Part shown: in pieces, positions 5,938 to 20,554 of the stretch
Numbering within the stretch: the stretch's first letter is position 1
Layout: every line of letters starts with the position of its first letter
From: an uncultured beta proteobacterium
GTDB lineage: Bacteria; Pseudomonadota; Gammaproteobacteria; Burkholderiales; Rhodocyclaceae
Direction: 5' to 3'
Assembly: GCA_903908065.1 (NCBI GenBank)
Contig: CAIVQO010000054.1
Span: forward strand, 1-52,083
DNA length: 52,083 nucleotides
Made by a program: the position numbers and the translations under genes
The notes under the pieces: generated by a model
Seen by the model: only the letters and a program-made list of their open reading frames with translations
What the model was told of the DNA's origin: nothing
The model's database searches: none

Positions 5938-7002
5938 ATGGCAGAGGTGAAACGAGGTTACGTGCGGCCGCTGGACCTGAAACACGGCCGGGTGGACATG
6001 ACCCACGGTTCCGGCGGGCGCGCCATGGTGCAGCTGATTTCCGAACTGTTCGCCAGGCACCTGGGCAACGAATACCTCGGCCAGGGCAATGATGGCGCCG
6101 TGTTGCCGGCGCCGACTCTTCACGGCAAGCCGGGCCGGTTGGTGATGGCCACCGACAGCCACGTGGTGTCGCCACTGTTCTTTCCAGGCGGCGACATCGG
6201 CTGCCTTTCGGTGCATGGCACGGTGAACGACGTGGCCGTGATGGGCGCGACGCCGCTCTACCTGGCGGCGGGGTTCATCCTCGAGGAAGGCTTTCCGCTT
6301 GCCGATCTCGCCCGCATCGTCGAGTCGATGGCGGCCGCGGCGAAGGAAGCGGGGGTGCCGGTGGTGACGGGCGACACCAAGGTGGTCGAGCGCGGCAAGG
6401 GCGACGGGATTTTCATCACCACCACCGGCGTCGGCGTCCTGGCCGACGGCATGAACCTGGGCGGCGAGCGGGCACGGCCCGGCGACGTGATCCTGGTCTC
6501 GGGCACGCTGGGCGACCACGGCGTGGCCATCATGAGCCAGCGCGAGAACCTGAGCTTCGAAGCCCCCATCGAATCCGACACGGCGGCGCTCAACGGCCTG
6601 GTTACGGCGCTGATGGCCACCGGCGCCGGCCTGCGTTGCCTGCGCGACCCGACGCGCGGCGGCCTGGCGGCGACGCTGAACGAGATCGCCACCCAGTCGG
6701 GCGTCGGCATGATGCTTTACGAGAAAGCGATCCCGGTGAAGCCGGTGGTGAATGCTGCCTGCGAATTCCTCGGCCTCGACCCGCTCTATGTCGCCAACGA
6801 AGGCAAGCTGGTGGTGATCTGCAATGCGCTCGACGCCGAGCTCCTGCTCAACACCATGCGTGCCCATCCGCTGGGCCGCGATGCCTGTTTCGTCGGCGAC
6901 GTGATCGCCGACGACCACCATTTCGTGCAGATGACCACGGCCTTCGGCGGCAAGCGCATCGTCGATTGGCTGGCCGGCGACCAGCTGCCCAGGATCTGCT
7001 GA
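5938..7002 (+). CDS. hypE: Carbamoyl dehydratase HypE
   Basis: HypE (354 residues) receives the carbamoyl group from HypF on its C-terminal Cys and dehydrates it with ATP to a thiocyanate. It belongs to the PurM/AIR-synthase superfamily. The signature MTHGSGGRAM is near residue 21, ATP-binding segments include GNDGAVLPAP and TGDTKVVERGKGDG, and the protein ends in the required PRIC. The ATG at 5938 directly follows the hypD stop. A later start at the MTHGSGG methionine would also give a family-like protein. The stop overlaps hypX. Confidence 0.96.
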   Translation: MAEVKRGYVRPLDLKHGRVDMTHGSGGRAMVQLISELFARHLGNEYLGQGNDGAVLPAPTLHGKPGRLVMATDSHVVSPLFFPGGDIGCLSVHGTVNDVAVMGATPLYLAAGFILEEGFPLADLARIVESMAAAAKEAGVPVVTGDTKVVERGKGDGIFITTTGVGVLADGMNLGGERARPGDVILVSGTLGDHGVAIMSQRENLSFEAPIESDTAALNGLVTALMATGAGLRCLRDPTRGGLAATLNEIATQSGVGMMLYEKAIPVKPVVNAACEFLGLDPLYVANEGKLVVICNALDAELLLNTMRAHPLGRDACFVGDVIADDHHFVQMTTAFGGKRIVDWLAGDQLPRIC

Positions 7003-10143: not shown

Positions 10144-10147
<4 letters not shown>

Positions 10148-11133
10148 ATATCCTCTGGCTCCAGTCCGGCGGTTGTGGCGGGTGTACCCTGTCCTGGCTG
10201 GGCAGCGAGCGCGGCTCGCTGTTCCGCGAACTGGCCGACGAGGGCCTCGAAATCCTCTGGCATCCCAGCCTTTCGGAAGCGTGTCTGGACGAGGCGCGCG
10301 AACTGATCGAAGGCTGCGCGTCCGGCGCCATCCCCTTCGACATCCTTTGTCTCGAGGGCTCGGTGCTGCGCGGTCCCCGTGGTACGGGCGCCTATCACCG
10401 CTTCGGCGGTGGCCAGCCGATGGTCGACTGGGTGCTGCGCCTGGCGGTGCGCGCCAAGCACGTGGTGGCGATCGGCAGTTGCGCGGCCTTCGGCGGCATT
10501 CCCTCGGCCGGAATGAATCCCACCGATGCCTGCGGCCTGCAACATGACGGCGACGTCGGCGGCGGCTTGCTGGGACCCTATTTCCGCGATGCCAGCGGCC
10601 TGCCGGTGATTAATATCGCCGGTTGCGCGCCGCATCCCGACTGGATCACCGAAACCCTGGTGATGCTGGCGCGCGGCAAGCTCGGCGTGGATGCGCTCGA
10701 CGAATACGGTCGGCCGCGCTTCTATGCCGACCAGCTGGTGCACCACGGCTGCCCGCGCAACGAGTACTACGAGTTCAAGGCCAGCGCCGAGAAGCATTCC
10801 GACCAGGGCTGCCTGATGGAACAGCTCGGTTGCAAGGGCACCCAGGCCCATGCCGATTGCAACCAGCGGCTGTGGAATGGCGAGGGTTCCTGCCTGCGCG
10901 GTGGCTACGCCTGCATCCGCTGCACCGAGCCCGGATTCGAAGAGCCTGGCCATGCCTTCGAGAGCACGCCCAAGGTCGCCGGCATTCCCATCGGCCTGCC
11001 GGCCGACATGCCCAAGGCCTGGTTCATCGCGCTGGCCGCGCTGTCCAAGTCGGCCACACCGGCGCGGGTGCGCGAAAACGCCACAGCCGACCACCAGCTG
11101 CGCGCGCCGTCGGTCAAGCGCGCCAAGAAATGA
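10144..11133 (+). CDS. hoxB: Regulatory hydrogenase small subunit HoxB (HupU)
   Basis: This is the small, iron-sulfur subunit of the H2-sensing regulatory hydrogenase (329 residues). The proximal cluster begins with CGGC at Cys11 and Cys14. Other cluster ligands lie in IGSCAAFGG, NIAGCAPHPDW, HHGCPRN and the GEGSCLRGGYACIRCTEPGF region. There is no Tat signal peptide: the protein starts directly at the first cluster, which separates sensors from exported uptake enzymes. The GTG start overlaps the hoxA stop and the stop overlaps hoxC, so hoxABC form one unit. Confidence 0.94.
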
Positions 11134-12578
11134 GCACGCGCAGGATAGTCGGGCCATTCAACCGCGTCGAGGGTGACCTCGAAGTTACGCTCGATATCGA
11201 CGCCGGACGCATCGCCGCGGCCTACGTCAATTCGCCGCTTTACCGCGGTTTCGAGCAGATCCTGCAAGGCAAGCTGCCGGCCGATGCCCTGGTGCTGGTG
11301 CCGCGCATCTGCGGCATCTGCTCGGTGGCGCAGTCGGCTGCCGCCGCGCTGGCGCTGGCCGATGCGGCCGGCATTGCGCCGCCGCGCAACGGTCGCCTCG
11401 CCGCCAACCTGACCCTGGCGGCGGAAAACCTGGCCGACCACCTGACGCATTTCTATCTCTTCTTCATGCCCGATTTCGCCCGCGCCGAGTACGAAAGTCG
11501 GCGCTGGTACCACGGCGCGGCAGAGCGATTCCGCGCCACCACGGGCAGCGCGCCGAACGAGGTGCTGCCGGTGCGCGCCCGTTTCATGCAGACGATGGGC
11601 CTGCTCGCCGGCAAATGGCCGCACACCCTGGCCGTACAGCCGGGCGGTTCGACGCGGCCGCTGCAAAGCTCGGAGATTTTTCGCCTGCACCGCATCGTGC
11701 GCGAGTTTCGCAGCTTCCTCGAAACCACCACGTTCGGCGGCCGCCTGGAGGAATTCGCCGCACTCGACAGCCGGGCCGCGCTGGCGCAATGGCAAGCGGC
11801 GGGGGCCAGGGGCGATCTGCGCACCTTCCTGGCCATCGCCGACGACCTTGGCTTGTGGCGCCTCGGGCGGGGCAGCGAGAGATTCCTGAGTTACGGCTGT
11901 TATGCGCAGGACGATGGACGGCTGTTTCCTGCCGGCGTCTGGCATGGCGGCGAAGTGCATGCGCTCGACCCGGGCGCCATCGAAGAAGATACCGCCCACT
12001 CCTGGTATGCCGCCACCGGGCGGCCGCAACATCCGGCCGAGGGCGGTACCTTACCGGTGGCGGACAAGGACGGCGCCTATTCCTGGTGCAAGGCGCCGCG
12101 CCTGGGCGGCCAGGTGGTCGAGACCGGCGCCCTGGCGCGCCAGGTGGTGGCCGGGCATCCGCTGGTGCGCGACCTGGTCGCGACGGATGGCGGCAGCGTC
12201 GCGGCGAGGGTTGTCGCACGCCTGCTGGAGCTTGCCCTGGTGCTGCCGGAGATGGAATCCTGGCTGGATCAACTGCAGCCCGGCGAGCCGTGGTGCATCA
12301 CGGCGCTGCCGGCCGACGAAACCTCAGGGGTCGGCCTGATCGAGGCGGCGCGAGGCTCCCTGGGGCACTGGCTTACGGTGCGCCGCGGCCGTATCCACAA
12401 CTACCAGATCATTGCGCCCACCACCTGGAACTTTTCGCCGCGCGATGCCGCTGGCCAGCCGGGCGCGCTGGAACTGGCGCTGGCCGGCTTGCCGGCAACT
12501 GCGGATGGCCAACTGCCGGCGGCGATTCATCACTTGGTGCGCAGTTTCGATCCCTGCATGGTGTGCACGGTGCACTGA
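11130..12578 (+). CDS. hoxC: Regulatory hydrogenase large subunit HoxC (HupV)
   Basis: Large subunit (482 residues) of the H2 sensor. The N-terminal active-site motif is RICGICSVAQS with Cys61 and Cys64. The Gln of the sensor class replaces the His that catalytic enzymes have further on. The second pair is DPCMVCTVH with Cys476 and Cys479, and the protein ends exactly at that His482. Catalytic large subunits carry a C-terminal extension removed by a protease after Ni insertion; its absence is typical of HupV/HoxC. The gene overlaps hoxB by 4 bases. The kinase partner hoxJ, normally next, is 5.6 kb further. Confidence 0.95.
   Translation: MSTRRIVGPFNRVEGDLEVTLDIDAGRIAAAYVNSPLYRGFEQILQGKLPADALVLVPRICGICSVAQSAAAALALADAAGIAPPRNGRLAANLTLAAENLADHLTHFYLFFMPDFARAEYESRRWYHGAAERFRATTGSAPNEVLPVRARFMQTMGLLAGKWPHTLAVQPGGSTRPLQSSEIFRLHRIVREFRSFLETTTFGGRLEEFAALDSRAALAQWQAAGARGDLRTFLAIADDLGLWRLGRGSERFLSYGCYAQDDGRLFPAGVWHGGEVHALDPGAIEEDTAHSWYAATGRPQHPAEGGTLPVADKDGAYSWCKAPRLGGQVVETGALARQVVAGHPLVRDLVATDGGSVAARVVARLLELALVLPEMESWLDQLQPGEPWCITALPADETSGVGLIEAARGSLGHWLTVRRGRIHNYQIIAPTTWNFSPRDAAGQPGALELALAGLPATADGQLPAAIHHLVRSFDPCMVCTVH
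11494..11518 (+). repeat. Dispersed 25-bp motif, copy in hoxC
   Basis: AAAGTCGGCGCTGGTACCAC followed by GGCGC. It is close to the intergenic copy at 22304 and lies in a different reading frame from the other coding copies (SRRWYHGA in HoxC). Chance similarity is possible because RWY is common here in HupV proteins. Confidence 0.4.
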
Positions 12579-12607: not shown

Positions 12608-14140
12608 TCACGCGGCCAGAAGTTCCTGCGCCCTTTGCAGCGGAAGGCCTGCACACCGGTTGACGAGGTTGGTGACTGTCGCGTCGATTTCCTCCACCAG
12701 GCGCTCACTCGCCGATGCCATGGCGCCGCCCAGCGTGTCGTCGTCGATGGCGTGGCCTTCGGAAACGAAGAACTGCTGCAGCCCAAGCCATTGCAGCCTG
12801 ACCTGGCCGAGTTGGGTTTGGGCGGACGGCGTATCCTGGATGCATTCCGCGAGATGTTCCAATTCTGAAGTGAAGGCATCGCGGTCACGTTTGATCGCCG
12901 AGTCGTAGTCTGCGTGGTTGCGCACCCAGAGCCTGCCGAGATAATTCTTCGCCATGCGTTGGACAAGCATGCGCTGACGCCCGGCAAGGTTGATCAGGGC
13001 TCCGTTTCGATCGGGATTGCGGGCGAGTTCATAGGTTGCGCGCTCGGCGATATCGACGATATCGGCGTTGGCGGCGAGCAAGGAATCCATGCGTTCGCGG
13101 CGGGGCGTTTCCAGCAGCAGCCTGCGGTAGCGAGGCCAGCATCGGGCCTCGCGGCGCAGCAGTTCGGCGAGGACGTGCTTGTGGCCGGCGACGGCAAGCA
13201 CGGCACGCTGGCGTTCATAAAGCGAGATCGACTGATGCAGCAGGCGGCGTGCCTTGACCGGGGATATGTTCCTCCCGATCATCATCCAGGCCTTGGCCAT
13301 TCGTTCGGACAGCATGCGCTGGCGGCCAGAAAGATTGATCAGTTCGGCCAGATGCAATGAGGCTGCCCGGGCCGGTGGGCAAGGGTGCGGTGCCGGAGCA
13401 GGGCCGCGCGAGCCGTCGCCTGGGAGCAGGCGGGCATCGTCCTGAGCCGAACGCTGCGGGTCAAGGCGACGGAGGACGATGGTCCTGCCCTGGACGCTTA
13501 TCCGGTTGGCGTTTGTCAGGTCCCGCAGTGCACGGGAAAAGGACTCCGGGGTCATTCCGAGCCGAGCGGCCACCAACTGCTTGCTCGCGGGCAGATGGAG
13601 GCAGGCATCCCTGCTACCAGCAGTCTGCCGGGAAAGGGATTGCAGGAAGTTCATCACCCGGTCATTGGCGGTCAGCAATTGGCTGCTGACCATTTCATCC
13701 TCCACGGCCAGTTGGCGCCGGGCCAGGTGGCTCGCCATGCGCCAGGCGAGGGTGGGGGATTTTTCGCAGGCGCTGCGCATGTTACCCAGCGGAATGGCGA
13801 TCAGGATACCGGGTTCAACGACAATATGCTGGATCGGCGTGTCGCGGCAGGAGAAAAGATCGGACAGGCCGCAAAGCTCGTTCGGACCGAAAAGATCCAG
13901 TACCCGCTCGACGCCGGAATCGGTGACCATCGAGCGGCTGATGGTTCCCGTCAATACAAGGAACAGGTGCTCCACCGCCTTCCCGGGATGATTCAGGATA
14001 TGGCCCCGGTCGCAATCGATGCGACGGATGTTGCGCAGAAGCGGCGTCAGCGTCTCAGCGTTGAGGTCGCGCAGCAGCGGGTTTCGCGAAATTGCACAGG
14101 CAGCCGCATCGGCCTCGATAGGACGGGTGCAGGTTGTCAT
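12608..14140 (-). CDS. FNR/CRP-type regulator fused to two PilJ/NarX-like P-box domains
   Basis: A 510-residue one-component regulator. Residues about 15-150 form a cyclic-nucleotide-type beta-roll. A winged helix-turn-helix spans about 160-225, with recognition residues E199, S202 and R203 in PESFSRALRDL, the FNR pattern that reads TTGA half-sites. After a Pro/Ala linker (232-262) come two helical repeats that each open with a P-box: NLSGRQRMLSERMAK at 269-283 and NLAGRQRMLVQRMAK at 384-398. These resemble the PilJ/NarX sensor module that binds nitrate or nitrite in NarX. No membrane segment is visible. Cys residues are not in the FNR 4Fe-4S pattern. The start at 14140 has an AAGGA site; a longer frame to 14239 would swallow the promoter box. 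Function is inferred: a soluble anion-responsive regulator. Confidence 0.8.
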   Translation of the reverse strand: MTTCTRPIEADAAACAISRNPLLRDLNAETLTPLLRNIRRIDCDRGHILNHPGKAVEHLFLVLTGTISRSMVTDSGVERVLDLFGPNELCGLSDLFSCRDTPIQHIVVEPGILIAIPLGNMRSACEKSPTLAWRMASHLARRQLAVEDEMVSSQLLTANDRVMNFLQSLSRQTAGSRDACLHLPASKQLVAARLGMTPESFSRALRDLTNANRISVQGRTIVLRRLDPQRSAQDDARLLPGDGSRGPAPAPHPCPPARAASLHLAELINLSGRQRMLSERMAKAWMMIGRNISPVKARRLLHQSISLYERQRAVLAVAGHKHVLAELLRREARCWPRYRRLLLETPRRERMDSLLAANADIVDIAERATYELARNPDRNGALINLAGRQRMLVQRMAKNYLGRLWVRNHADYDSAIKRDRDAFTSELEHLAECIQDTPSAQTQLGQVRLQWLGLQQFFVSEGHAIDDDTLGGAMASASERLVEEIDATVTNLVNRCAGLPLQRAQELLAA

Positions 14141-14201
14141 CGATTTTCCTTGGCATGTTTGCCCTCCGGGGGAGATAATTGCAGGAGCAGTTCTGGCGGT
14201 G

Positions 14202-14215
14202 TTGACCTCGGTCAA
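14202..14215 (-). promoter_or_regulatory. FNR/DNR-type binding site before the CRP-PilJ gene
   Basis: On the minus strand the site reads TTGACCGAGGTCAA, a perfect TTGAC-N4-GTCAA palindrome. About 29 bases from its centre lies TGCAATTAT, an acceptable extended -10, which would place the site near -41.5 (class II activation). The ATG at 14140 is about 62 bases downstream of the box. The adjacent regulator has the E..SR recognition residues that fit this site, so autoregulation is a natural inference; FNR itself could also bind. Confidence 0.7.
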
Positions 14216-14302: not shown

Positions 14303-17300
14303 TCAGCTGGCGCTGCAGAGCACCTCGTGGCGCAGTTCTTCAAGCGCGGCCAGCAGCGAGTCGCGGCGCTGGTCGAGGTGTCCGAGCCGGGTTCCGGCGC
14401 CGGCGCGGTCGGAGCGCGCCAGGGCCTCGATCTCCTTGCCTGTTTCATGCACCTCGCGATGGGCCTCGACCAGCCGGTCGAAGGACGGATAGTGGCCGTA
14501 GCGTTCCAGCCCGATCGAATCCAGCCAATGGCCGAAGCGGCAATCGTGCGGGTCCATCGGCGGCGGCGAGACGCTGCCTGGGGCGGCTTCCACTGTCCGG
14601 CGCAGCAGGTCGATCCAGCGCAGGTGGTCGACCTCGACAGTCAGCAGCGGCAGGTCCTCGCGCGGCCATAGCGAGACGTGGCGCCATTCCTCGGGCTGGC
14701 GCCAGTCGCCAAGCCAGGCGTCGACCTGGGCGGCGGGCATCGGCCGGGCAATGCCGTAGCCTTGCGCCAGGTCGCAGCCCAGGCGCAGCAACAGGGTGCC
14801 GTGGGCGACGGTTTCCACGCCTTCGGCGATGACGCGGCGACGGAAGGCGGCAGCGAGGCCGATGATGCTGTCGACGATGGACAGGTCGTCCGGGTCGGTG
14901 AGCATGTCGTTGATGAAGGATTGGTCGATTTTCAGCGTGCCGGCCTGCAACTGCTTGAGGTAGGTCAGCGAGGAATAGCCGGTGCCGAAATCGTCGATGG
15001 CGAAGCTGACTCCCAAGGCCTGGCATTCGGTCATCACCGCACCGACTTTTTCCAGGTCGTTGAGCGCCGCGGTTTCGAGGATCTCCAGTTCGACGAGGGC
15101 GGGTGACAGCCGCGGATGGCGTGCAAGCGCGTCGCGCAGTCCCTCGGCAAACCCGGCGCCCTGCAATTGTTCGGCGGCGACATTGATGCCAATGGCCAAT
15201 GGCCTTCCCGCCTGGGCCCAGGCCTCTGCTTGCGCCAGGGCCGTCTCCAGCGCCCAGTCGCCGACCTGCCGATGCAGTCCGACGAAATCCACCATGGGCA
15301 GGAATTCGGCGGGATCGAGCAGGCCGCGTTTCGGGTGCTGCCAGCGGATCAGCGCTTCCATGCCGAGGATTTCGCCGCTGCGCATATTGACCTTGGGCTG
15401 ATAGACCAGTTGTAGCTGGCTATCTGTCATGGCGCACTGGATGCTCTCCAGCGAATCGCGGCGCAACTCGGAAAGCCGGTCGTGTTCGGCGTCGAACAGC
15501 GCATATCGGTTGCGGCCGGCCTGCTTGGCCTGGTACATGGCCTGGTCGGCATGGCGCAGCAGCATGTCGGGATCGGCGCCGTCGAGCGGAAACAGGGTCA
15601 CGCCCATGCTGGCGGAGAGGCGGGCCTCGCCCTCGGCCAACTGGAAAGGCTTGTTGAGCGAAGTGCGGATGCGCTCGAGGGCGATCTCGCATTCGTCGAA
15701 ATGCGCCATGTTGCCGAGCAGCACGACGAATTCGTCGCCGCCGAGTCGGCTGACGGTGTCGCCGGCGCGGACATTGGCCGAAAGCCGGCGCGCGGCGTCG
15801 ATCAGCAGCAGGTCGCCGGCAGCGTGGCCCCACTGGTCGTTGATCGGCTTGAAGCCGTCGAGGTCGAGGTAGCAGATCGCCAGCAGGCGGTCGCTGCGGC
15901 TGGCCTGGCCGATCGCCTGGGTCAGGCGGTCGGAAAGCAGGCGCCGGTTGGGCAGGCCGGTCAGGGCGTCGAAGTAGGCCATCTGCTCCAGCCGTTCGCG
16001 TGATTCCTTCAGCGCGGTGATGTCGCTCGACATGCCGACGTAATTGCGTACCCGGCCGTCGCGGTCCTTTACCGCCGAGATGCTGGTCTGCTGCACGTAG
16101 CGCATGCCGTCCTGGCGCCGGTTGATCAATTCGCCACGCCAGGAGCCGCGCTGGTCGAGCTCCTGCCACATTGCGCGATAGAACTCGGCATCGTGCTCGC
16201 CGGAGGCCAGGAAGCGCGGGTTGCGGCCGAGGACTTCGTCGCGCCGGTAGCCGGTGAGGGCGACGAAGGTGTCATTGACGTCCACGATGTTGCCCGCCGC
16301 ATCGGCGATCAGTATGCCTTCCTGGGCATGCTCGAAGACGCCGGCGGCCAGTTGCAGGCGGTCGCGGTTGCGGCGCAGCTCCAGGTTGGCGCGCGAGATC
16401 CACCACAGCACCGCCAGCAGCAGTGAAATCACCGCGGCCCCGGCCAGGGCCAGACGCTGTCCGTAGCGCGACAGCACATCGTCGAATTCCACCGGCAGGT
16501 CGTCATAGGGGCCGAGGCGGAATTCGAGGAACAGCTCGTGCACCGGCTGGTAGTTCTGCGGCAGGGTCCAGCCGTGGATGCCGGCGGCGCGCGCCGCCGG
16601 GTGGTCGTTTGGCAGGCTGAGCAGGGCGATCAGCAGTTCCTTGGTGACTTCATCGGCGACATGGTCGAGCTTGGCGAAGGGCCAATGGGGATAGAGCTGC
16701 GTGCTGTGGCGATAGGGGTAGCCGGGCGTGCTCTGTTCGCCGATCACCCTGAGCTTGCTCAGGTCCAGCTTGCCTGCGGCGGCCATGGCTTCGATCAGGT
16801 CGGAGCGGACGAAGCCGATGTCGGAGCGTCCGGCGATGACACTGGCGACCACCTTGTCCTGCGCCTGCAATTGCAGGATTTCGGCCACGTCTTTGTCGAG
16901 GTCGATGCCGGCCCTGCGCGCCTCGCGCAAATGGACCTGCCAACCGCCAAAGCCGTGGGTGTCGGGTACCGCCAGGCGCTTGCCGCGCAGGTCGGCGTAG
17001 GTCTTCAAGTCGTCGCGCTCGGCGCGGGCGATTGCGGTGCCACCGAAACGATCCACCGGGCCGTTGGGGCCAACCACGCGCATCGTGGCGATGCGCGAAA
17101 TCCGCCCGCCGGCTTCGAGTTCGACGTAATGCCCGGTGTTGGTGATGACCAGGTCGATGCGACGCTCGACGATCGCCGGCTCGAACTCCGCCAGCGTCAG
17201 CGGCACGATGCGGAACTGCCGCGGGGACAACTTGGCCGCAAGGTAGTCGGCATGTGGCTGCCATTCCTTGCGCGCCCTATCGACGCCCCGGTAGGCCAGC

Positions 17301-17440
17301 ACGCCGATGCGCAGGCTTCCATCCGCGCTCGCCTCAGCGGGCGCGGGCACAGTGTCGGCGGTGCCTGCTGCAATGCAGCACAAGCACCCCAGAACGAGCG
17401 CCAATAGGCGCCGGAAGCGGTTTAAATCCATGATTACCAT
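14303..17440 (-). CDS. PhnD-like sensor, PAS, GGDEF-EAL protein with C-terminal CZB domain
   Basis: A 1045-residue membrane signalling protein for cyclic-di-GMP. A signal peptide (1-29) leads into a PhnD-type periplasmic binding domain (about 40-315) and one membrane helix (about 327-349). A PAS domain follows (360-480), then GGDEF with an intact RLGGDEF at 565-571, and EAL with E695-A-L, DDFGTGYSS at 816-824 and IAEGVET. The last 110 residues match the chemoreceptor zinc-binding (CZB) pattern: H939-x-R-W, C967-x-F-G-x-W, H994-x3-H998. Both catalytic motifs look intact, so it may synthesise or degrade cyclic-di-GMP, with Zn (or oxidant) input from the CZB. An alternative start is Met4. It ends 162 bases before the CRP-PilJ gene on the same strand. 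Confidence 0.9.
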   Translation of the reverse strand: MVIMDLNRFRRLLALVLGCLCCIAAGTADTVPAPAEASADGSLRIGVLAYRGVDRARKEWQPHADYLAAKLSPRQFRIVPLTLAEFEPAIVERRIDLVITNTGHYVELEAGGRISRIATMRVVGPNGPVDRFGGTAIARAERDDLKTYADLRGKRLAVPDTHGFGGWQVHLREARRAGIDLDKDVAEILQLQAQDKVVASVIAGRSDIGFVRSDLIEAMAAAGKLDLSKLRVIGEQSTPGYPYRHSTQLYPHWPFAKLDHVADEVTKELLIALLSLPNDHPAARAAGIHGWTLPQNYQPVHELFLEFRLGPYDDLPVEFDDVLSRYGQRLALAGAAVISLLLAVLWWISRANLELRRNRDRLQLAAGVFEHAQEGILIADAAGNIVDVNDTFVALTGYRRDEVLGRNPRFLASGEHDAEFYRAMWQELDQRGSWRGELINRRQDGMRYVQQTSISAVKDRDGRVRNYVGMSSDITALKESRERLEQMAYFDALTGLPNRRLLSDRLTQAIGQASRSDRLLAICYLDLDGFKPINDQWGHAAGDLLLIDAARRLSANVRAGDTVSRLGGDEFVVLLGNMAHFDECEIALERIRTSLNKPFQLAEGEARLSASMGVTLFPLDGADPDMLLRHADQAMYQAKQAGRNRYALFDAEHDRLSELRRDSLESIQCAMTDSQLQLVYQPKVNMRSGEILGMEALIRWQHPKRGLLDPAEFLPMVDFVGLHRQVGDWALETALAQAEAWAQAGRPLAIGINVAAEQLQGAGFAEGLRDALARHPRLSPALVELEILETAALNDLEKVGAVMTECQALGVSFAIDDFGTGYSSLTYLKQLQAGTLKIDQSFINDMLTDPDDLSIVDSIIGLAAAFRRRVIAEGVETVAHGTLLLRLGCDLAQGYGIARPMPAAQVDAWLGDWRQPEEWRHVSLWPREDLPLLTVEVDHLRWIDLLRRTVEAAPGSVSPPPMDPHDCRFGHWLDSIGLERYGHYPSFDRLVEAHREVHETGKEIEALARSDRAGAGTRLGHLDQRRDSLLAALEELRHEVLCSAS

Positions 17441-18188: not shown

Positions 18189-19598
18189 ATGAAAACTCCA
18201 ATCCAGCCAGCGCCGGGCAGTGAGCCGGAATCCCGCCAGGGCGAATCGCGCGCGGCGCTGACGGTCGAGATGCTGGCCGCTGCCGGCGCCAGCGCCGAAG
18301 ACGGCATCTGGCTCGATGTGATCCGCAAGATGGACGAGGTCTACAACGACCTGCTGCAATATGAAGTGGCGCTGGAAGAGAAGAACGCGACACTGGAGGA
18401 CACCCAGCAGTTCATCTCCTCGGTGCTGACCTCAATGTCCGACCTGTTGATCGTGTGCAGTCGCGCCGGGGTGATCGAAAGCGTCAACGAGGCGCTGGCC
18501 TCGCTGCTCGGCGTCGATGCGGCAGCGCTGCATGGCCGCACCGTGTTCGACCTGTTCGCCGACGAAGAGTCGCGCCAGCATGCCGGACGCCTGTTCGCCG
18601 AGCAGGACGGCTGCGCGGTCGAGGACTGCGAGATGCTGCTGAAGGCCGCCAACGGCAGCGCGATCCCGGTGTCGCTAAACTGCACGCCGCGCTACAACGG
18701 GGTTGGCAAGATGCTGGGGTTGGTCATCACCGGGCGTCCGGTGGGCGAGTTGCGGCGCGCCTACCAGGCATTGCGCCGCGCCCATGAAGACCTCAAGACC
18801 ACCCAGCAGCAGCTGATTCATTCCGAAAAGATGGCGTCGCTGGGCCGCCTGGTGGCCGGCGTCGCCCATGAGCTCAACAATCCGATCAGCTTCGTCTACG
18901 GCAACACCGTGGCCATGAAGCGTTACGCGGAGCGCATCACGCGCTACCTGGAGGCGGTGCATGGCGACATGCCGCGCGAGGCGCGCGAGGCCTTGCGCGC
19001 CGAGCTGCGCATCGATCGCATGCTCGACGACTTGCCATCCCTGATCGATGGCACCGTCGAAGGCGCGGAGCGCACCCGCGACATCGTCGACGCGCTGAAG
19101 CGCTTTTCCGCCACCGACCGCGACGAGCGCCGGCATTTCGACCTTGCCGAGGTGGTCGAGCGTTCGGTGCAGTGGGTCGGCAAGGCCACCGGCAGCCAGT
19201 TCGAAACGAGGCTCGACCTGCCCGGCGCGATCGACGTGGCGGGGTCGCCGGGCCAACTGCAGCAGGTGGTGATGAACCTGGTGCAAAACGCCGCCGACGC
19301 CACGGAAAAATCGCGCGAGCGGCGGCTCGACATCCAGGGCCGCATCGAGGGCGGCGAGGTGGTGATCGAATTCCGCGACAGCGGTCCCGGCATCGCCGAG
19401 GAGAACCTGTCCAAGCTGTTCGATCCCTTCTTCACCACCAAACCGGTGGGGCGCGGCACCGGGCTGGGCCTGGCCATCAGCTATGGCATCGTCGAGCGCC
19501 ACGGCGGCCGCTTGACCGCCGCCAACCATCCCAAGGGCGGCGCCTTGTTCACCCTGCGACTGCCCCTGGTGGCGAGCGCGTCGGCCGACGGCGCATGA
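18189..19598 (+). CDS. hoxJ: H2-signalling histidine kinase HoxJ (HupT)
   Basis: A soluble sensor kinase of 469 residues that partners the regulatory hydrogenase HoxBC and the regulator HoxA. Residues about 45-75 form a coiled segment. A PAS domain spans about 78-185 (VLTSMSDLLIVCSRAGVIESV). The phospho-acceptor is His227 in LVAGVAHELNNPISF. The ATPase domain has QNAADAT (N box), FRDSGPGI (G1) and [13 protein letters not shown] (G2). No membrane segment is seen, matching HupT/HoxJ. In R. eutropha hoxJ directly follows hoxC; here three minus-strand genes intervene. It overlaps hoxV by 4 bases. Confidence 0.88.
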   Translation: MKTPIQPAPGSEPESRQGESRAALTVEMLAAAGASAEDGIWLDVIRKMDEVYNDLLQYEVALEEKNATLEDTQQFISSVLTSMSDLLIVCSRAGVIESVNEALASLLGVDAAALHGRTVFDLFADEESRQHAGRLFAEQDGCAVEDCEMLLKAANGSAIPVSLNCTPRYNGVGKMLGLVITGRPVGELRRAYQALRRAHEDLKTTQQQLIHSEKMASLGRLVAGVAHELNNPISFVYGNTVAMKRYAERITRYLEAVHGDMPREAREALRAELRIDRMLDDLPSLIDGTVEGAERTRDIVDALKRFSATDRDERRHFDLAEVVERSVQWVGKATGSQFETRLDLPGAIDVAGSPGQLQQVVMNLVQNAADATEKSRERRLDIQGRIEGGEVVIEFRDSGPGIAEENLSKLFDPFFTTKPVGRGTGLGLAISYGIVERHGGRLTAANHPKGGALFTLRLPLVASASADGA

Positions 19599-20554
19599 GC
19601 GGCGGCATCGATCCGGGCTGCGTCCGGATCCGACTCGCCGTGCACGACGGGCGGGTGGACGCGGTCGAGGTCAGGAGCGAGCGTCCGCAAGTGGCGCGCA
19701 TGCTTTGCGGGCGTCCGGCAGACGCGGCGGTGCGCCTGGTGCCCCTGCTGTTTGCGTTGTGCGGCAAGGCCCAGGGGCGTGCCGCCGAACTCGCGCTGGC
19801 GGCTGCGCGCGGCGCGGCGGTGACGGCGCAGCTCGATCCGGCGATCGCTGCCGAGGCAATGCGCGAGCACCTCTGGCGCTGGTTGCTCGACCTGCCGCCT
19901 CTGCTGGGCCTGCCGCCCTTGAAAGAGGAATTTGCGTCTGCAGTGGCCAGTCTGGCGCGCGACGAGCGACAGTCGATCGCGGCCTTGCTCGTGGGCGAGG
20001 CAATCCTCGCCATCGAGCACCGGCTCGATGCGCTGCCGGACTGCGAGGCGGCGGCGTCGTGCTGCCTGCCGGCGATGGATGCCGCCGCGTCACGAAACGC
20101 CTGGCCGCGCCTAGATGCCGCCTTCTGCCTAAACCCGACCTGGCGCGGCGAGGCCGCCGAAACCGGCGCCCTGGCGCGACGCGGCGGCGGCACCGGCAAG
20201 GCCGGCACGCAACGCTGGCAGGCGCGCCTGGCGGAGCTGCGCGACTGGGCAGCCGGTACCGCAAAAGTCGGCGCCGGCGGCACGGCGAGTTCGATCACGC
20301 TGGTGCCTGGAACAGGCCGCGCGCTGGTCGAGACGGCGCGCGGCCTGCTGATGCACGAGATTTCGCTCGACGGTGACCGCGTGGCGGATTACCTCATCGT
20401 CGCGCCGACGGAATGGAACTTTCATCCGCGCGGGCCCTTGCCGCGCTGGTTGCTGGGACACGATGCGAGCGACCGTGAGGCCCTGCGCAGCTTGGTGGCG
20501 CGTTGCGTTGCCGCGCTCGACCCCTGCGTGCGCTGGGAGCTGGAAGGCATTTAG
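19595..20554 (+). CDS. hoxV: Hydrogenase cofactor scaffold HoxV (HupK)
   Basis: HoxV/HupK (319 residues) is a degenerate relative of the hydrogenase large subunit. It is thought to act as a scaffold that passes the Fe(CN)2CO unit to the large-subunit precursor. The late part parallels HoxC: PTEWNFHPRGPLPRW and LDPCVRWELEG stand where HoxC has TTWNFSPRD and DPCMVCTVH, so only one Cys of the second pair remains. The protein is otherwise variable, as the family is. The ATG overlaps the hoxJ stop. In the R. eutropha order hoxV lies between hoxT and hypA, so the gene has moved here. It contains KVGAGGTAS, encoded by a copy of the dispersed motif. Confidence 0.85.
   Translation: MSGGIDPGCVRIRLAVHDGRVDAVEVRSERPQVARMLCGRPADAAVRLVPLLFALCGKAQGRAAELALAAARGAAVTAQLDPAIAAEAMREHLWRWLLDLPPLLGLPPLKEEFASAVASLARDERQSIAALLVGEAILAIEHRLDALPDCEAAASCCLPAMDAAASRNAWPRLDAAFCLNPTWRGEAAETGALARRGGGTGKAGTQRWQARLAELRDWAAGTAKVGAGGTASSITLVPGTGRALVETARGLLMHEISLDGDRVADYLIVAPTEWNFHPRGPLPRWLLGHDASDREALRSLVARCVAALDPCVRWELEGI
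20264..20288 (+). repeat. Dispersed 25-bp motif, copy in hoxV
   Basis: AAAGTCGGCGCCGGCGGCAC followed by GGCGA. It is read in frame as KVGAGGTA in a variable linker of HoxV, the same frame as in hypB and in the minus-strand hydrolase. Confidence 0.6.

Follow-up and report, generated by a model that had tools for sequence, protein, structure and literature searches.

In denitrifiers, nitrate is described as being sensed either by membrane kinases (the NarXL system) or by NarR and other FNR-like proteins. The kinases NarX and NarQ act via NarL and NarP and carry one helical bundle per chain. The consensus of their P-box has G-S-L-R, and G-x-x-R has been named as the nitrate-binding motif (PMC8199190). 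In the Pseudomonas aeruginosa chemoreceptor McpN, a single, periplasmic PilJ domain binds nitrate across the homodimer, and the same 2019 paper defined the N-box, in its strict form [IVL][ND]xAGxQRML[ST]Q, and reported it in 941 sequences (PMC6381276). Since transcriptional regulators are counted among them, N-box regulators as such are already in print. NarR of Paracoccus, which is FNR-like, lacks an Fe-S cluster, responds to nitrate/nitrite and replaces NarXL, is evidence that an FNR-like protein need not carry Fe-S to mediate a nitrate response, and DNR activates nirS of P. aeruginosa in the presence of nitric oxide (NO) (both PMC8139620). Here we describe P0001, a protein of 510 amino acids in which a CRP/FNR-type factor is followed by two PilJ modules; it is encoded in a stretch of 52,083 nucleotides (hereafter the window), positions 1 to 52,083 of contig CAIVQO010000054.1 of assembly GCA_903908065.1, from an uncultured member of the Rhodocyclaceae. 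We know of no PilJ module in either NarR or DNR.

The P0001 gene (12608..14140, minus strand, as are all parts of it given below) is a verified open reading frame whose ATG, at 14140, is preceded by AAGGA, six bases apart. Its product combines a cNMP_binding-type sensory/dimerisation fold (residues 44-127; 13760..14011; 35.6 bits, Pfam cut-off 27.5) with a Crp-type helix-turn-helix (PF13545, HTH_Crp_2; residues 161-225; 13466..13660; 42.3 bits, cut-off 27), and so belongs to the CRP/FNR superfamily, as a first-pass annotation had proposed. A predicted flexible linker (residues 230-258; 13367..13453; predicted local distance difference test, pLDDT, <50) leads to PilJ repeat 1 (residues 264-373; 13022..13351) and PilJ repeat 2 (residues 378-497; 12650..13009). 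The PilJ profile (PF13675) gave 55.7 bits over two stretches in the Pfam search (cut-off 26.6); scored apart in a search of the source genome, the repeats reached 35.0 and 34.2 bits, each above that cut-off. Each was predicted to form a four-helix bundle, with helices at 264-289, 294-318, 322-343 and 348-373 in repeat 1, and at 378-405, 410-433, 438-459 and 467-497 in repeat 2. Both the tandem and its fold had been anticipated by the annotation, which also took the protein to be soluble and cytoplasmic; in agreement, no membrane segment was found (the top 19-residue Kyte-Doolittle mean was 1.29). Of the two outcomes by which the annotation would have been refuted, repeats that do not match PilJ and a fold unlike a four-helix bundle, neither was observed. 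Unlike NarX and NarQ, P0001 also returned no kinase domain in the Pfam search.

A survey of the domain pair in other genomes, which the annotation had suggested, showed the architecture to recur in at least 58 distinct full-length proteins, P0001 included, all of them from Rhodocyclaceae (as delimited by GTDB), common denitrifiers of sediments and wastewater. A protein counted as full length if its BLAST alignment began ahead of P0001 residue 110 and ran past residue 420; relatives came from the best 80 of 162 in one scan and the genome surveys scored the first three or four candidates per genome, so all such counts are lower bounds. The recognition-helix residues E199-x-x-S202-R203, which the annotation had read as FNR-like, stand at these positions and do not vary among the 58 proteins. 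The label 'FNR-type' holds for this helix only: no cysteine is conserved across the 58, those of P0001 (4, 15, 43, 90 and 98) vary, and C occurs in more than 20 proteins at just three alignment columns (22, 29 and 22 proteins), one of which lies within N-box 1. A classical O2-sensing FNR was ruled out on these grounds, and FNR-type Fe-S sensing is unlikely since the family conserves no cysteine.

The two repeats open with NLSGRQRMLSERMAK and NLAGRQRMLVQRMAK. Within them lie N-box-like motif 1, INLSGRQRMLSE (residues 268-279; 13304..13339), with G272-x-x-R275, and N-box-like motif 2, INLAGRQRMLVQ (residues 383-394; 12959..12994), with G387-x-x-R390. R275 is present in all 58 proteins and G272, G387 and R390 in 57 each; G-x-x-R is intact in both repeats of 56 of the 58, P0001 among them, and the adjacent R273 and R388 are invariant (58/58 each). 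The annotation had likened the motif to the P-box of NarX. The G-x-x-R pair is indeed there, but the motif resembles the PilJ-type N-box of McpN (AGAQRML) more closely than it does the P-box of NarX/NarQ. By sequence, a NarQ-type module was far weaker as a candidate (E 1.3 for NarQ against 1.3e-14 for McpN). Pfam treats NIT and PilJ as distinct families; with matches admitted up to E 1 the tandem gave PilJ only, in a search in which the HMMER filters drop most weak matches.

The nearest precedent in build is NasR, the NIT-ANTAR antiterminator of Klebsiella oxytoca, a soluble nitrate receptor of like fold whose output also binds nucleic acid; that output is an RNA-binding ANTAR domain, whereas that of P0001 would be CRP-type DNA binding. 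The annotation's premise that PilJ/NarX modules are normally periplasmic and serve kinases or chemoreceptors must be qualified accordingly, since NasR was already known (PMC7496416). The P0001 tandem is predicted to share the compact double four-helix bundle of the NasR NIT domain. In NasR both arginines are retained and one glycine is replaced (PMC8199190); the second arginine is R176, in helix 5, and nitrate releases an autoinhibited output (PMC7496416).

From motif conservation and predicted structure we favour, with moderate confidence, the reading that P0001 is a cytoplasmic one-component regulator in which a DNR-like CRP/FNR half is joined to a tandem PilJ oxyanion module whose N-box arginines hold nitrate or nitrite. 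The N-terminal half would bind as a dimer to TTGAY-N4-RTCAA boxes, to judge from the E-x-x-S-R residues, and the C-terminal half would adopt a NasR-like double bundle in which R275 (helix 1) and R390 (helix 5) together bind a single nitrate or nitrite ion lying between bundle 1 and bundle 2 of the same chain. Such a single-chain site would do intramolecularly what McpN does across its dimer. Ligand binding would reorient the PilJ module and, through the linker, change how the CRP half binds DNA or activates its targets; by analogy, the nitrate-driven release of an autoinhibited output in NasR is a reasonable model.

The genomic neighbours of the relatives point to denitrification. A gene of NirS type (cd1 nitrite reductase) adjoins the regulator in 27 of the 58 loci and was the commonest partner seen. 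It lies directly upstream and on the same strand in 26 of these, with an overlap of the called starts at one extreme, a gap of 342 bp at the other and no gene called between, and on the opposite strand in one (L041). The c-plus-d1 domains of NirS were confirmed with Pfam for three neighbours (L119, L145 and L041); the other 24 were called with a home-made hidden Markov model at 361-1265 bits, the lowest score belonging to a gene truncated where its contig ends, and the weak d1-type genes at L047 (85 bits) and L178 (83 bits) were not counted. The source genome itself carries a paralogue, on contig 98, whose neighbour is a true NirS; NirN was rejected in its favour. The nirS link is probably old, because both large clades of the tree hold nirS-linked members. 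With G-x-x-R kept in 56 and nirS adjoining 27 of the 58, the family is probably one of one-component, nitrate/nitrite-responsive regulators of denitrification. In the nirS-linked relatives the regulator would probably act on the nirS operon to which its own gene belongs. P0001 is a real, well-formed and not unique protein, and its strongly nirS-linked family plausibly consists of one-component nitrate/nitrite regulators. A relative that faces nosZ and nosR (L142, 9250-10740) lacks the motif glycine in both repeats and is possibly a variant with another ligand preference.

A perfect FNR/DNR-type box, TTGACCTCGGTCAA, lies at 14202..14215, 62 bp before the ATG of P0001, and is the sole exact match in the window. 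The pattern TTGAYNNNNRTCAA has 38 matches in the 3.84 Mb genome, compared with four for the reversed pattern; among these, nirS has a box 87 bp ahead of its called start (C98:111697), a NosZ-like gene has one ∼164 bp ahead of its matched part (C55:10213), and two lie 420-700 bp from napA on its upstream side (C53:3071 and 3348). In the relatives, an exact box was present in 23 of the 24 nirS operons having at least 200 bp upstream, and the sole miss (L050) has one at 6081, within an over-long called start; at regulators without nirS the figure was 10 of 29, and the overall density, with the counted promoters included, was 67 in 851,945 bp. A candidate -10 element, AATTAT (14175..14180, minus strand), has its centre 31 bp from that of the window box and is weakly supported, shuffled copies of this part of the window giving a chance of 0.06. 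A -10-like hexamer with at most two mismatches at this distance was seen in two of four box promoters, those of the window and of a Propionivibrio hydrogenase; at the promoters of the Propionivibrio regulator and of nirS in the source genome none was found at class II spacing. The window copy would probably control itself and perhaps hydrogen-related genes. In another contig of the source genome (C21; L184, 3573-4792), an uptake hydrogenase operon is preceded by two hemerythrin-like genes, one of which has an FNR-type box on either side.

Several points weigh against the proposed reading. The boxes do not reveal the acting regulator because they are common to FNR, ANR and DNR proteins. No nirS was present at 31 of the 58 loci in the available flanks (several at contig ends), nor was it found at seven of these for which longer flanks were available, one of them showing just the 83-bit d1-type gene. 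The source genome has NapA (1491 bits) and no NarG over the cut-off, and the organism appears to reduce nitrate in its periplasm; a cytoplasmic sensor would therefore require the import of nitrate or nitrite. The strict N-box is departed from at two positions in repeat 1 of P0001 and at one in repeat 2, and is matched by just 13 (repeat 1), four (repeat 2) and two (both) of the 58. One family protein (L139) lacks the second motif arginine, while L142 retains both arginines and lacks both glycines; these are the two without the full G-x-x-R pair. The Foldseek match to NasR had an E-value of only 0.064 (template-modelling score 0.58-0.61), and a bundle taken singly also gives matches to sensors with different ligands (HK9, 14.8; PcaY, 14.5; McpS, 13.8).

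The points that concern P0001 itself feed the idea that its tandem binds no oxyanion and has been re-purposed for dimerisation or protein docking, for example with HoxA/HoxJ or the cyclic di-GMP enzyme next to it, leaving a regulator that is constitutive or takes another input. Its S271, E279 and V393 occur in one, two and one of the 58, and its branch is by far the longest in the tree (1.89, with the placement flagged as unsure by the tree tool), so its ligand may have drifted. P. aeruginosa PilJ, likewise a tandem, is reported to bind no nitrate, although neither of its domains is said to conserve the N-box (PMC6381276). Its structure (7zjr) aligned over one bundle only (113 residues). The GC content at third codon positions of the P0001 gene is low (0.742; the 16 other window genes for which it was measured span 0.776-0.876) and its codon-usage score is the lowest of the 17, so that the gene may have been acquired or be fast evolving. 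P0001 is in fact the most diverged family member, and conclusions drawn from the family apply to it with less force. Against a loss of binding, both G-x-x-R pairs, R273 and R388 have been kept despite divergence elsewhere, and the nearest relative among the best 80 of 162, a Propionivibrio copy of 37% identity, also retains both motifs; we regard a non-binding tandem as unlikely. Still less probable is that the CRP half is the main sensor, of NO as in DNR or of a nucleotide, with PilJ merely modulating. It is true that DNR, an activator of nirS in the presence of NO, is the best match of this half in the PDB and its closest solved relative, but no cysteine is conserved, and the PilJ arginines are almost as invariant as the DNA-contact residues. 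If a family member encoded immediately after nirS binds nitrate or nitrite as proposed, nitrate sensing within the CRP/FNR superfamily becomes testable with a single purified protein and two arginine mutants, the switch bears on the timing of nitrite, NO and N2O production, and the module could serve as a soluble nitrate biosensor with a DNA read-out.

The annotation had also linked P0001 to hydrogen use, from its position in the window. The gene order is hybE, hypB, hypD, hypE, a HoxX-like gene, an NtrC-type regulator, the small and large subunit genes of an H2-sensor-type hydrogenase (10144..12578, plus strand; PF01058/PF14720 and a large-subunit match), three minus-strand genes including that of P0001, and finally, beyond these three, genes for a PAS histidine kinase and HoxV. 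By order and family we take the subunit genes to be hoxB and hoxC. The kinase and HoxV-like genes (18189..20554, plus strand; profile matches), presumably HoxJ-like and HoxV-like, would be the remainder of an interrupted Hox regulatory cluster. The neighbour at 14303..17440 (minus strand) encodes, according to Pfam, a phosphonate-binding-like periplasmic domain with PAS, GGDEF, EAL and CZB (zinc-binding) domains. We give slightly less than an even chance to the view that the link is accidental, the P0001 gene and two neighbours having been inserted into the Hox cluster and having other targets. The Hox order is broken by these three genes, hydrogenase markers adjoin only two of the 58 loci (the window and the Propionivibrio copy), as compared with 27 for nirS, and no box was found at the promoters of the uptake hydrogenases of the source genome, the two boxes near them, on another contig, being next to hemerythrin-like genes and 2.6-3.2 kb away from the small-subunit gene on its upstream side. 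On the other side, the two hydrogenase-linked copies come from different genera and are sisters in the tree (support 96/96); the Propionivibrio locus has an [NiFe] hydrogenase small subunit (422.5 bits) clustered with hyp-type genes, an FNR-type box before the regulator and another placed 57 bp ahead of the small-subunit gene, as called. The hydrogen link is partly borne out by this nearest relative, given its own place in a hydrogenase cluster and the boxes there. A tentative and rather doubtful extension is that a Rhodocyclaceae-wide family has placed a complete NIT-like nitrate receptor on a DNR-like factor in the nirS operon, bypassing NarXL, and that one branch has been re-wired to [NiFe] hydrogenase loci, coupling electron-acceptor state to hydrogen use; that nitrate/nitrite supply would tune H2 use via the window copy is the most speculative step.

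At the level of genomes, at least 61 of 395 Rhodocyclaceae gave a match at E 1e-28, and at least 48 of the 395 one that starts no later than residue 53 and ends no earlier than residue 440 (judged by eye). In the genus, 22 of 31 genomes, the source genome counted, matched at 1e-30; all other copies, and the paralogue on contig 98, are only 28-32% identical to P0001, so no close orthologue was seen among these 31. In the order, at least 32 of 399 genomes matched at 1e-24, with a single full-length match outside the family (G592, not among the 58), and a class search of 369 genomes with a different query gave no further full-length match at 1e-24 among the candidates scored. No plasmid-borne copy was found at E 1e-20 with one clade-B member as query, and a limited literature search, with partial coverage of subscription journals, found no description of this regulator family. 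Three relatives (L164, 8293-10389; L165, 8139-10235; L152, 6144-8138) have frames of 664-698 residues; their starts may therefore be mis-called, or they may have an extra N-terminal segment.

The tandem PilJ module is also common as a stand-alone protein of ∼250-320 amino acids (L001, 1435-2199, on C60 of the source genome, and many of L053-L118), with a signal-peptide-like start (by eye) and mainly in Betaproteobacteria-type records; the fused module may derive from a periplasmic protein of this kind. In Aquabacterium (L055, 5457-12031) its gene stands, by eye, between nirB-like and nirD/assimilatory-nitrate-reductase-like genes, a possible further nitrate link for the module. In Pelomonas and Roseateles (L074, 7689-9856, and L077) a CRP-like gene adjoins the stand-alone tandem PilJ gene, a pair that is possibly the unfused counterpart of the fused regulator.
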